This document shows positions 29,150 through 36,041 of a stretch of 64,000 bases of DNA, one piece after another. The position numbers were made by a program, and so were the translations under genes. The stretch comes from Candidatus Rifleibacterium amylolyticum (GTDB lineage: Bacteria; Muiribacteriota; Ozemobacteria; Ozemobacterales; Ozemobacteraceae). The stretch spans positions 124,001 through 188,000 of the forward strand of contig JAACJG010000003.1 of the NCBI GenBank assembly GCA_009917695.1, in the 5' to 3' direction. Each line of letters begins with the position of its first letter. Within the stretch, counting starts at the first letter, position 1. Under the pieces are notes generated by a model that saw nothing but the letters and a program-made list of their open reading frames with translations, was not told the origin of the DNA and made no database searches.

Positions 29150-29234
29150 TGCCGGAAGTCGGGGTCGAACCGACACGCCTTTAAGGGGCGCGGGATTTTG
29201 AGTCCCGTGCGTCTGCCAATTCCGCCATTCCGGC
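29150..29234 (-). tRNA. tRNA-Leu (anticodon CAA)
   Basis: Class II tRNA with a long variable arm. The acceptor 7-mers GCCGGAA and TTCCGGC pair; the anticodon stem CGGGA/TCCCG encloses loop CTCAAAA, anticodon CAA (reads UUG). The T-arm has GGTTCGACC. The discriminator is A; CCA is not encoded. Confidence 0.95.
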
Positions 29235-29438: not shown

Positions 29439-29580
29439 GGTGTTGCCTCCCGGGATATGTTATTTTTTCCCCTCGCTGTAAAGGTATTCTGTACTGAAAA
29501 AAAGTAAAGATCTGTTTCTTGGAAATATCTGGCAAGATGCGGTAAACTCTTGCCAGATTGTAAATTTGCGGAGCAACAAG

Positions 29581-30822
29581 ATGAAAAGGCAAACCGGCAT
29601 ACTGCTGATTACTGTTCTAATGCTTATGATATGCGGAATCGCGCAGGCGCAGCATGATAAATATTTTTTCAGAACTCTCGAAGGACGGGCAGTATTGTCG
29701 CGCACCGGTGGTTCGACCTGGCTGGCACTGTCGCAGGTGCAACCTGTCGAAATCAGGCCTGGAGACATGGTCAGTGTCGAAGGTAATGGCCGCGGTGAAT
29801 TGCTGTTTCCCGATGGCTCAGTTGCCCGTCTCAAGAATAATGCCATGGTAACCCTGTTGCGTTATGGGCTTAACATGCGGCATGGCTATATCTGGATGAC
29901 TGTTCGTCGCAGCAGCGATATTTTCAGGGTGGTGACCCCACTTGGCTCATGCAGCGTATTAGGCACTTCGTTCGATGTTGATGTCGATCGTTTTGGCAAG
30001 ACACATGTTCGCGTATTCTCTGGAATAGTTGCTGTGCGTGCTGAAGCTGACAGCAGAAATCGCCAGCTTGTGCTGCAGCCGGGTATGCGCACGACAGTTA
30101 CCGATAAGACGAAAGTTGCAGATTATCCGGATAAGTTTTCGCATTCGACAATAGAACCAGCTTTGATAAGCGAGTGGAGTTCGCGTGCTTTCGCTCCACA
30201 AACCTCGGCAGGTATGCCAACAGCAACCATGTCTCCAGCAACGCTTGAGGCGCCAGCTCAGTCACAGGCTCCGACCATTAAAATCGAGCCGCCGCCACCG
30301 GGCCCCGGCCATGCTGCAACAACCGGTTTGCCGCCAATAAGGCCTGAGATAGAAGGCGCCCAGACCGATCTGCCGCCGGTATATGAAGTAATTGAAGGTC
30401 TCGAACCCGATAAGAGCAGCCGAAAAGGTATAATTGCGCGACAACGTTCGGCGTTCCTCGATATGCTAAGAAAGCAGCAGCTCGAGCGTGATTCGGTTAT
30501 TGGCGGCCGGTTTGAGGAAGAAGAAGAGATGCGCCGCGATCAACATGCAACAGAACTTGGGCATTATCATCGACCAGTCTCTACTGTGTCTGATAATGAG
30601 TCTCTCGATCGTGAATATTACAATCTCCGCAATAGAGTTCTCAGAGTCCAGAGTCAGATTCGTCAGACTGAGTTAGAGATCAGCACCTTGATAAATCAGG
30701 GTGTCGGTACATCTGCGCAGCGGCGGAAAGTCGCATCTCTTCAAGGTGCGCTGGTTGAGTTGCAGACGGAACAGAGGGTACTTACCCACCGACTTCACGA
30801 TCTACAGACAAAAAAAAGATAA
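29581..30822 (+). CDS. Secreted FecR-domain protein with C-terminal coiled coil
   Basis: 413 residues. A signal peptide (ends GIAQAQ) is followed by a FecR domain: EIRPGDMVSVEGNGRGELLFPDGSV type strands and FRVVTPLGSCSVLGTSFDVDV (split here for length, about residues 50-165). A Pro/Ala-rich linker (about 200-275) leads to a charged coiled coil at the end. FecR domains in such stand-alone exported proteins are not iron regulators; they are thought to bind ligand or envelope polymers. ATG 29581 has GGAG 8 nt upstream. Confidence 0.8.
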   Translation: MKRQTGILLITVLMLMICGIAQAQHDKYFFRTLEGRAVLSRTGGSTWLALSQVQPVEIRPGDMVSVEGNGRGELLFPDGSVARLKNNAMVTLLRYGLNMRHGYIWMTVRRSSDIFRVVTPLGSCSVLGTSFDVDVDRFGKTHVRVFSGIVAVRAEADSRNRQLVLQPGMRTTVTDKTKVADYPDKFSHSTIEPALISEWSSRAFAPQTSAGMPTATMSPATLEAPAQSQAPTIKIEPPPPGPGHAATTGLPPIRPEIEGAQTDLPPVYEVIEGLEPDKSSRKGIIARQRSAFLDMLRKQQLERDSVIGGRFEEEEEMRRDQHATELGHYHRPVSTVSDNESLDREYYNLRNRVLRVQSQIRQTELEISTLINQGVGTSAQRRKVASLQGALVELQTEQRVLTHRLHDLQTKKR

Positions 30823-32919: not shown

Positions 32920-34578
32920 ATGAATACGCAGAAAAAACGTCTGGGCGACATACTTATAGATTGTAATCTGATAACCGATGAGCAGCTCAAGCAGGCTCTG
33001 GCTTTTCAGCGCGACAAAGGGCTCAAGCTTGGTGAGGCCCTTTCAGAGATGGGTCTGGTCACCGAAGATGACATTATCTGGGCACTGGGCAATCAGCTGA
33101 ACATTTCGTTCATTCATCTCAACCCTGATATTGTCGATAACGAAGTCGTAAAAATGGTTACGCCTGAGTTTGCACGTGATCATAAGCTGATGCCTCTTTA
33201 TAAGGCGGGAAATCAGCTTAGCGTATGCATGGTCGATCCGCTCGATTCTCGCCCGATCGAGTATCTCGAAGGCAAGTTCGGCGTTGAGGTATCAGCCTCG
33301 ATTTGTACTGCCTTCGACTTTGAACAGACATTTTCAGCGGTTTACGGGCCGGTTGACGTGCAGCAGAAAGTTGCAACCGGCGAAATCGATTCAAGCGAAA
33401 AACAGAGCATCGAGCGCGGTATTCCCAAAGGCATGGAAGGCCCGGAAAAGGTTATCAACTATATTCTGGGGCAGGCGATCATAAACAAGGTAAACCGCAT
33501 TCACTTTGAACCATCTGACAAAGGTGTGGTTATCAGGTTTCGTGCGAACAATGTTCTGTCTCGCAAGATTGAAGTTCCTGTCAAGCTGCATCATGAGATT
33601 ATCAGCCGCCTGAAAAAGCTGTCGCAGATTCCTGAAAAGGATCAGCAACGCGAAGGCTTTGTAGTTGGGCATTTTCGTGTAACTGTTTCGAGCCGTCAGA
33701 TCAATATTCAATCGATCTTTTTTCCGACGGTTAATGGCGAAATGGTCATTCTTAAGCTCAGCGATTTCAGCAGTATTTTCGAACAGCTTGGCAAAAGTGG
33801 CAAAGCGGCGATCGAAGAGCTTGTTGCTGCAGTCAAAACAACGCATGGTGTTTTGTATGTCAGCGGACCTCGTGAATCAGGGCGCACTACCACACAATAC
33901 TGCATTATGAGCAGCTATGACGCTGAAACCCGTAAGCTGATAACGGTAGAAGATCCAGTATTAGCTACTTTGCCACAGGTTACGCAGATTCAGGTTGGCA
34001 GCGGCGGTATCAACAGCTCGATGGCAGGCCTGAAGCTTGCACTTTTGCTCGATGCTGACGTTGTTTATCTTGACCATCTCGGCACCAGAGAACTGGCCGA
34101 AGAAGTCGCGTTCGCCGGGCTTGGCGGCAAAACAGTTCTTACTTCCTATCTGGCGCATGATGCTTCAAGCAGTATTGTAAAGCTTCTTGCAACCGGAGCT
34201 GACCCGGTTATTATCGCTTCTTCTCTGTGTGGTTTCGTGTGCCAGCGCCTGGTGCGCCTGCTCTGCCCGAAATGCAGAATAGAGAGCGAGATTCCGGCGG
34301 CAATGAGCGAACTGATACCCGAAGACAGCAGAGGCAAAAAGCTTTTTGCGGCAAAAGGCTGCGATGTCTGCAATAACACCGGATACATCGGGCGATCGCT
34401 GATTACCGAGTATCTGCCGGCCAGCCCGACTCTGCGCCAGATGATCATTAATCGGCAGAATTACCAGGATTTTAACAGCTTTGCCCGCAAACAGGGAATT
34501 GTAAGCCTTGAAGAAAAAGCTCTGGCAATGGTTCTGAATGGCGAAACCAGTGCCGATGAATTCATGAGGCTGTTTTAA
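32920..34578 (+). CDS. PilB/GspE-like ATPase with degenerate catalytic motifs
   Basis: 552 residues with the full GspE/PilB layout: an N-terminal MshEN/T2SSE_N region (about 1-150, GDILIDCNLITDEQLKQAL) and a RecA-like ATPase region. Walker A reads GPRESGRT (316-323), with Arg for the Lys of GxxxxGK[ST]. The Walker B region reads VVYLDHLGTRELAE instead of IIMVGEIRD. The His box TGHLVLSTLHT is replaced by GGKTVLTSYLA. The zinc-binding cysteines remain (449, 452, 481, 484). The fold is kept but ATP turnover is doubtful. It lies 2 nt from an intact pilT, so it may be a structural or regulatory partner of pilus motors. Confidence 0.85.
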   Translation: MNTQKKRLGDILIDCNLITDEQLKQALAFQRDKGLKLGEALSEMGLVTEDDIIWALGNQLNISFIHLNPDIVDNEVVKMVTPEFARDHKLMPLYKAGNQLSVCMVDPLDSRPIEYLEGKFGVEVSASICTAFDFEQTFSAVYGPVDVQQKVATGEIDSSEKQSIERGIPKGMEGPEKVINYILGQAIINKVNRIHFEPSDKGVVIRFRANNVLSRKIEVPVKLHHEIISRLKKLSQIPEKDQQREGFVVGHFRVTVSSRQINIQSIFFPTVNGEMVILKLSDFSSIFEQLGKSGKAAIEELVAAVKTTHGVLYVSGPRESGRTTTQYCIMSSYDAETRKLITVEDPVLATLPQVTQIQVGSGGINSSMAGLKLALLLDADVVYLDHLGTRELAEEVAFAGLGGKTVLTSYLAHDASSSIVKLLATGADPVIIASSLCGFVCQRLVRLLCPKCRIESEIPAAMSELIPEDSRGKKLFAAKGCDVCNNTGYIGRSLITEYLPASPTLRQMIINRQNYQDFNSFARKQGIVSLEEKALAMVLNGETSADEFMRLF

Positions 34579-34580
34579 GC

Positions 34581-36041
34581 ATGAGCGACAATTTTTTTGG
34601 AAAACTTTTTGGCGGTAATTCAGATTCATCTGACGATGATAAAAAACCGCGTTCGCCGCAGAGCGCAGACACGCCGGCCCGGCCGACCGCTCCGCCTGCG
34701 CGTCCGGTAGCGCCGGCTCAGCCTCCGACCAGACCGGCCGGCCCGCCGGCATCTGCTCCGCCCCGGCCCGCTGAACCGACACCTGGTGCTCCAGCCCGCC
34801 CGACTGCACCACCATCCGGCGCTCCCGCCGCTCGTCCGCCGGCAGCCGGCCCGGCCTCGCCCGCACGCCCGGCTCAGCCTGCCAGGCCAACCGGTATTCC
34901 GATGTCACCAGCTGGCGGCACTGCCAATCGCCCGGCGCAGTCAAGCGCTTCTGCCGGAAGTCAGGAAGACGCGGAAGAAATAATTATCGACGATCTGCTC
35001 AGACTGATTGTCGATAAACAGGGATCTGACCTTCATCTTACAGTCGGCTCTCCGCCGATGTTGCGTTTGCAGGGAAAACTCTGGCCAACTGATCTGCCGG
35101 TGCTCACTGCCAAGGAAACGCGTCGACTCGTCTACCAGTTTCTCAACAACGACCAGCGCGAGCGTTTTGAGCGCGACCTCGAACTCGATATATCGTATGA
35201 ACTCGAGAGAGTCGCACGTTACCGCTGTAATATTTTCTTAAGCAGACTTGGTATTGGCGCTGTTTTCAGGGTTATTCCAACTGAAATCAAAACCTTGCAG
35301 GATCTGAGATTGCCACCGGTTCTTGGCGATCTGGCGCGTCGTAACAAGGGCCTGATTCTGGTTACCGGTCCCACCGGTTCAGGTAAATCGACGACTCTGG
35401 CAGCCATGGTCGATCAGGTCAACAACGAGCGCCAGGACCACATCCTGACCATTGAAGACCCGATAGAATTCGTGCATAGACACAAATCATGTATCGTCAA
35501 TCAGCGCGAAATAGGTCCGAATACCAAGTCATTCTCTAATGCCCTTAGATCTGCCCTGCGCGAAGACCCTGATATCATTCTGGTCGGTGAAATGCGCGAC
35601 TACGAAACAATTTCTCTCGCCGTCACCGCTGCCGAAACCGGTCACCTGGTATTTGCCACTTTGCATACGCCATCGGCGGCGCAGTCTGTCGATCGTATCG
35701 TTGACGTTTTCCCGGCCCACCAGCAGGATCAGATTCGAACTCAGCTTGCCGATGCACTTCAGGGAATTATAGCGCAGCAGCTTATTCCGACTGTTGATGG
35801 CATGAGTCGCGCGGTCGCTCTCGAAATATTGATCAACACGCCGGCAGTCGCCAACCTGATTCGCGATAACAAAACATTTCAGCTGCCTTCAATCATGCAG
35901 ACCAGCAAGCAGGCTGGCATGCAGACCATGGATCAATCGCTTCTCGACCTGGTCAAGCAGCGCAAGATTTCGCCACAGGAAGCCTACCGGCGCGCCTTCG
36001 ACAAGAAATCTTTCGAGCAGTACAAGCCGCGAGAATATTGA
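34581..36041 (+). CDS. pilT: Type IV pilus retraction ATPase PilT with Pro/Ala-rich N-terminal extension
   Basis: 486 residues; usual PilT is about 350. Residues 1-20 are acidic, 22-125 are a low-complexity Pro/Ala/Arg linker, and the PilT core follows (LLRLIVDKQGSDLHL). Core motifs are canonical: Walker A GPTGSGKST (263-271), Asp box EDPIEF, Walker B ILVGEMRD, His box GHLVFATLHT and the PilT-type AVANLIRDNK near 423-432. It drives pilus retraction or twitching. The linker could tether the motor or bind the adjacent degenerate PilB. Same operon as the PilB-like gene. Confidence 0.93.
   Translation: MSDNFFGKLFGGNSDSSDDDKKPRSPQSADTPARPTAPPARPVAPAQPPTRPAGPPASAPPRPAEPTPGAPARPTAPPSGAPAARPPAAGPASPARPAQPARPTGIPMSPAGGTANRPAQSSASAGSQEDAEEIIIDDLLRLIVDKQGSDLHLTVGSPPMLRLQGKLWPTDLPVLTAKETRRLVYQFLNNDQRERFERDLELDISYELERVARYRCNIFLSRLGIGAVFRVIPTEIKTLQDLRLPPVLGDLARRNKGLILVTGPTGSGKSTTLAAMVDQVNNERQDHILTIEDPIEFVHRHKSCIVNQREIGPNTKSFSNALRSALREDPDIILVGEMRDYETISLAVTAAETGHLVFATLHTPSAAQSVDRIVDVFPAHQQDQIRTQLADALQGIIAQQLIPTVDGMSRAVALEILINTPAVANLIRDNKTFQLPSIMQTSKQAGMQTMDQSLLDLVKQRKISPQEAYRRAFDKKSFEQYKPREY

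Follow-up and report, generated by a model that had tools for sequence, protein, structure and literature searches.

Analysis of a 64,000-nucleotide stretch of the Candidatus Rifleibacterium amylolyticum genome (the window) revealed a PilB/GspE-like gene, here called PilB*, whose product is, as judged from its residues, a hydrolysis-incompetent PilB paralogue. Strong purifying selection acts on the gene, and the protein is probably a c-di-GMP-responsive partner of the retraction ATPase PilT encoded directly behind it. The same pairing of MshEN with PilT recurs in numerous bacteria that are not related to this one, suggesting that pilus retraction is widely steered in a way not yet described. 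Feature positions are collected in Table 1.

Table 1. Positions of PilB*, PilT and their motifs in the window, and of two MshEN fusions in other genomes (residue changes are given as Geobacter metallireducens PilB→PilB*)
Feature	Position	Strand	Basis
PilB* (552 aa), PilB/GspE-like pseudo-ATPase with MshEN domain	32920..34578	+	Pfam, match to solved PilB, 21 orthologues
Tandem 24+5+24-residue c-di-GMP motif, residues 7-59 (RLGDILIDCNLITDEQLKQALAFQ / KLGEALSEMGLVTEDDIIWALGNQ)	32938..33096	+	NF053729
Former Arg-finger positions, R271→Q264, R286→K279	33709..33756	+	mapping on PilB
Altered Walker A GPRESGRT, residues 316-323, K331→R322	33865..33888	+	mapping on PilB
Altered Asp box TVEDPVL, residues 342-348, Mg-binding E357→L348	33943..33963	+	mapping on PilB
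Altered Walker B DADVVYLDH, residues 378-386, catalytic E395→H386, invariant D385	34051..34077	+	mapping on PilB
Altered His box GGKTVLTSYL, residues 402-411, H413→K404, H420→L411	34123..34152	+	mapping on PilB
Zinc Cys region (C449, C452, C481, C484), intact	34264..34371	+	invariant in 21 orthologues
PilT (486 aa), intact retraction ATPase with N-terminal extension	34581..36041	+	TIGR01420, 492 bits (cut-off 319)
Conserved N-terminal PilT peptide MSDNFFGKLFGG, candidate docking peptide	34581..34616	+	family conservation
Pro/Ala-rich, fast-changing PilT linker	34617..34973	+	15-32% Pro in first 130 residues of the family's PilTs
MshEN-GxxExxY/PDDEXK_3 fusion directly upstream of PilT	L118:5720-6523	+
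MshEN-GxxExxY/PDDEXK_3 fusion directly upstream of PilT	L119:5307-6086	-

Domain architecture and catalytic residues of PilB*

Pfam analysis matched PilB* to MshEN (45 bits) and T2SSE (191.5 bits), and alignment of the orthologue profile with a solved PilB gave a match over the full length (295 bits). The NCBIfam scores of 258-265 bits lay far under the PilB/GspE equivalog cut-offs of 630-676 (TIGR02538, TIGR02533). A sequence-only reading of this DNA had described a 552-residue protein starting at 32920 with an MshEN region, a RecA-like frame and the zinc cysteines, all of which were recovered by Pfam and the alignment; the comparison with PilB/GspE that it had proposed yielded homology across the whole of PilB together with missed equivalog cut-offs. 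An AlphaFold model built from eight sequences had a pLDDT of 46.5 and a pTM of 0.27.

The domain order of PilB*, with MshEN followed by N2D and a RecA-like domain carrying the zinc Cys, is that of PilB/GspE (TIGR02538, TIGR02533), whereas all of the tested catalytic residues are lost. Residues were mapped onto Geobacter metallireducens PilB by profile alignment of the orthologues with solved PilBs, using the catalytic roles named in the structure paper of that protein (PMC5424180), and seven catalytic residues were found to be replaced (Table 1). The Walker A motif without its Lys, the missing Walker B Glu and the changed His box had been noticed from the sequence; the alignment bore out all three, placing Arg322 and His386 at the Lys and Glu positions, and extended the losses to the Mg-binding Glu of the Asp box and both Arg fingers. 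Residues T323, the inter-chain R446, the four zinc Cys and D385 were kept in 21/21 orthologues, the last being a family-invariant Asp at the site of the atypical Walker B Gly of PilT-like ATPases. The first Asp-box Glu (E344) and the Gly/Thr frame of the P-loop were also invariant. Because the defining residues were tested and are absent, PilB* is, by these residues, set apart from the active PilB/GspE family and not one of its members.

Orthologues, selection and the adjoining PilT

Orthologues of PilB* were found in 21 of the 24 genomes examined from its Riflebacteria family (46-100% identity; family-profile scores of 821-1032 bits), and the three genomes without one are 64-82% complete. Elsewhere in the phylum, 16 genomes were searched and had no orthologue; their next matches reached at most 363 bits, like canonical PilBs. 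The Walker A Arg was present in 20 of the 21 orthologues, with Lys in L041 alone; the catalytic Glu was missing from all of them, its place taken by H, K, Q, Y, N or C, and all had GGKT in the His box. The altered motifs, for which a search in related genomes had been proposed, are therefore common to the family, and no set with intact motifs was seen. L041, the most divergent orthologue, keeps the Walker A Lys and the Asp-box Glu and lacks the catalytic Glu, the Arg fingers and the His box, a pattern that would fit a loss of hydrolysis earlier than of nucleotide contacts; since the Lys and Asp-box Glu are kept, this orthologue may still bind nucleotide.

Reading frames were intact in all 21 genomes. 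Pairwise dN/dS ranged from 0.036 to 0.095, low in each domain and similar to that of the adjoining PilT, although these values are rough because dS is high in several pairs. Sequencing error and a pseudogene were ruled out by the 21 orthologues and the low dN/dS; conservation of the altered motifs over 46-100% identity in separate assemblies excludes chance as well. In the tree, the stem of the PilB* clade among the PilB subfamilies measured 2.19 changes per site. The search for an intact PilB elsewhere in the genome, another check proposed earlier, returned eight besides PilB*, so the pilus machine needs no PilB* as a motor; the idea that PilB* is the only extension ATPase of the genome was rejected on the same grounds.

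The stop codon of PilB* is followed by 2 nt and then the ATG of PilT on the same strand, and the TIGR01420 score of this PilT is above the cut-off, marking it as an ordinary PilT family member, in agreement with the intact, extended PilT of the sequence-only reading. Its motor motifs were all intact in 18 orthologues. PilT lay next to PilB* in 19/19 contigs extending far enough, and the remaining neighbours varied between genera. The family's PilTs share an N-terminal peptide, DN-FFGKLFG, whose coding pattern occurs once in the genome and which may serve as a docking peptide. A general docking signal was rejected for this peptide, which is conserved only within the family and differs in G028, a genome from another family of the phylum.

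Upstream of PilB*, a gene for a FecR-domain protein (window 29566-30822, +) is found in most family genomes whose contig reaches there and forms a partly conserved neighbourhood. The only tRNA gene of the window, tRNA-Leu (CAA), lies at 29150-29234 (-).

The MshEN domain and its pairing with PilT outside the family

The MshEN motif is defined as two 24-residue motifs separated by a 5-residue spacer, and the MshEN of MshE binds c-di-GMP (PMC5013675). PilB* scored 62.4 bits with the motif model NF053729 (cut-off 38), and both motifs were matched in 20/21 orthologues. The motif of PilB* is imperfect, with Asn16 for Gly and Lys36 for Arg. All six relatives tested were above the cut-off of the model, and the Arg of the first motif was absent from several further relatives, in other phyla; given the imperfect motif and this missing Arg, some of these proteins may not bind c-di-GMP. 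The genome itself contains 19 GGDEF matches over the cut-off, which makes c-di-GMP signalling likely in this bacterium. We infer that the MshEN of PilB* binds c-di-GMP.

In G028, which has the nearest PilT outside the family (60% identity), the gene before this PilT overlaps it by 1 nt and encodes a 200-aa MshEN-only protein lacking the ATPase half. Among all MshEN proteins of the phylum this protein is the closest to the PilB* N-termini, and it grouped with them at 99/98 in the tree. Beyond the phylum, the best MshEN and short-frame matches yielded three more MshEN-only proteins and one full-length P-loop-less protein, all located directly before PilT. PilTs were further ranked with a PilT profile irrespective of the upstream gene, and the next 40 loci were inspected. 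A P-loop-less MshEN protein was upstream of PilT in 12 of the 40; neither this proportion nor 17/45 is a frequency, because the profile was built from partner-bearing PilTs and favours their relatives. Eleven of these 12 genes were adjacent to PilT and one (G281) lay about 280 nt upstream, while an intact PilB directly upstream of PilT was found at 0/40 loci. Altogether, a P-loop-less MshEN protein preceded PilT at 16 loci outside the phylum, representing 13 families, and many PilTs of the PilB*-partner type had no such gene directly upstream.

All 25 PilT-partner MshENs of the tree grouped in a single clade that excluded 22 canonical PilBs (SH-aLRT 99), and Trp54 was present in 21/25 of the former versus 0/22 of the latter. 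The C-terminal half of the partners was either full-length and P-loop-less, shortened to a total of 433-459 aa, or absent, with four relatives showing MshEN before PilT without any ATPase half. In two genomes of one family of another phylum, a GxxExxY/PDDEXK_3 domain fused to MshEN replaced the C-terminal half. Partner presence could be explained by nine changes on the PilT tree, whereas shuffling gave a mean of 16.7; it is therefore clustered, yet with several gains or losses. These comparisons support MshEN, the putative c-di-GMP receptor domain, plus PilT as the conserved unit.

Proposed role, alternatives and related systems

In PilB/GspE, the presumed contact of the N1/MshEN domain is the stator at the base of the pilus (review PMC11656802). 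PilT has no MshEN stator-docking domain, so PilB* would supply a signal-controlled docking module. In the proposed mechanism, the MshEN of PilB* would sense c-di-GMP, and PilB* would recruit or hold PilT at the pilus base or, alternatively, occupy the seat of PilB without turning; by either route it would set the timing of pilus retraction, whether as an activator or as an inhibitor. Retraction control is the likely output of PilB*, and a contact with PilT is presumed from the gene pairing. More tentatively, the PilT partners may constitute one ancient PilB-derived family of pseudo-motor c-di-GMP receptors that serves a widespread PilT subtype as its dedicated switch and whose ATPase half has been decaying separately in many phyla, in the extreme leaving MshEN by itself or with a swapped C-terminal domain.

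The sequence-only reading had proposed a dead or alternative motor acting as a regulator or as a mixed-hexamer partner. Its first part, a dead motor with a changed function and possibly a regulator, is supported; the mixed hexamer is weakened, because four relatives lack the ATPase half and still have MshEN before PilT. Such a partnership, with PilB* forming a hetero-hexamer or stacked rings with PilT or an intact PilB and modulating turnover, is now unlikely. The inter-chain Arg446, the zinc Cys and N2D conserved in PilB* would suit it, as would the behaviour of PilU, which depends on PilT and can work with an inactive PilT (PMC6762196). However, with the ATPase half missing from these relatives and shortened in others, ring membership is not the general function, although it may hold inside the PilB* family.

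Second among the unlikely readings is a signalling hub outside the pilus motor, in which PilB* would act on exopolysaccharide or another output and its linkage to PilT would reflect shared regulation. A Walker A-mutant PilB of Myxococcus xanthus does change exopolysaccharide production (review PMC11656802), but PilT is the constant neighbour across phyla while the other neighbours vary. A residual or unusual ATPase, binding or slowly hydrolysing ATP at a non-canonical site formed by Arg322 and the invariant Asp385, is improbable: the invariant P-loop Gly/Thr frame, E344 and Asp385 could serve such a site, but the protein has jointly lost the catalytic and the Mg-binding Glu, the two Arg fingers and the two His of the His box, and the P-loop is altogether absent from the relatives. 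Loss of catalytic residues is also what relaxed selection would produce, but a decaying relic without function is scarcely credible and already contradicted by the intact frames, the low dN/dS in every domain and the unbroken synteny with PilT.

The preferred reading, a c-di-GMP-responsive PilT partner, has partial counterparts among known systems. ArlH/FlaH of the archaellum, a RecA-fold non-motor partner of a motor ATPase, resembles PilB*, but it is KaiC-like, belongs to an unrelated subfamily and lacks MshEN. PilU acts through PilT as a second motor-type protein (PMC6762196), as proposed for PilB*, but it is PilT-like, active and without MshEN. The tandem MshEN motif is shared with MshE of Vibrio cholerae, which is an active motor, whereas PilB* is inactive by sequence and genomically tied to PilT; in Vibrio, how far extension or PilT-driven retraction prevails depends on the state of MshE and on c-di-GMP (PMC7096442). 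In Geobacter, mshE lies directly upstream of pilT3, an arrangement conserved in three Geobacter species, and Geobacter PilT3 is able to retract pili in Pseudomonas (PMC5065972). Compared by gene order, this pair resembles PilB*-PilT in having an MshE-type gene directly upstream of PilT, and it is possibly a member of the PilT-paired pseudo-PilB/MshEN family.

We found no matching description of catalytically dead PilB paralogues paired with PilT in the open-access literature. The c-di-GMP receptors that we found described for type IV pili (MshE, FimX/PilZ) target the extension motor, and a catalytically dead PilB paralogue kept beside PilT in many phyla would give the messenger a direct way to reach retraction. 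A retraction motor without MshEN would thereby gain a detachable second-messenger input. The partners also form a natural series, from a nearly intact to a fully deleted ATPase, for separating the role of MshEN from that of the motor ring, and Geobacter mshE-pilT3 may make the idea testable in a genetically tractable strain.

Other pilus-motor fusions were also observed. The same genome encodes a 617-aa frame (L014:712-2562, +; G000:C17) that joins an intact PilT motor to a cyclic-nucleotide-binding domain and the C-terminal part of MshEN; the frame thereby connects PilT to a sensor domain and an MshEN element and may be a variation on the PilB*-PilT theme with an exchanged sensor. Frames of similar length occur in related genomes. 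Two further fusions in this genome are a 1024-aa MshEN-PilB with a C-terminal histidine-kinase-type ATPase domain (HATPase_c; L004:514-3585, +; G000:C21), an extension motor joined to a kinase-like module, and a 510-aa T2SSF (PilC-like) stretch fused to a divergent T2SSE domain (L105:8621-10153, -; G000:C10), which keeps the Walker A Lys and has a changed His box. In another genome of the phylum (G034), a 915-aa frame combines HEAT repeats with a PilT motor (L101:4864-7611, +), and frames of the same size are present in two related genomes.
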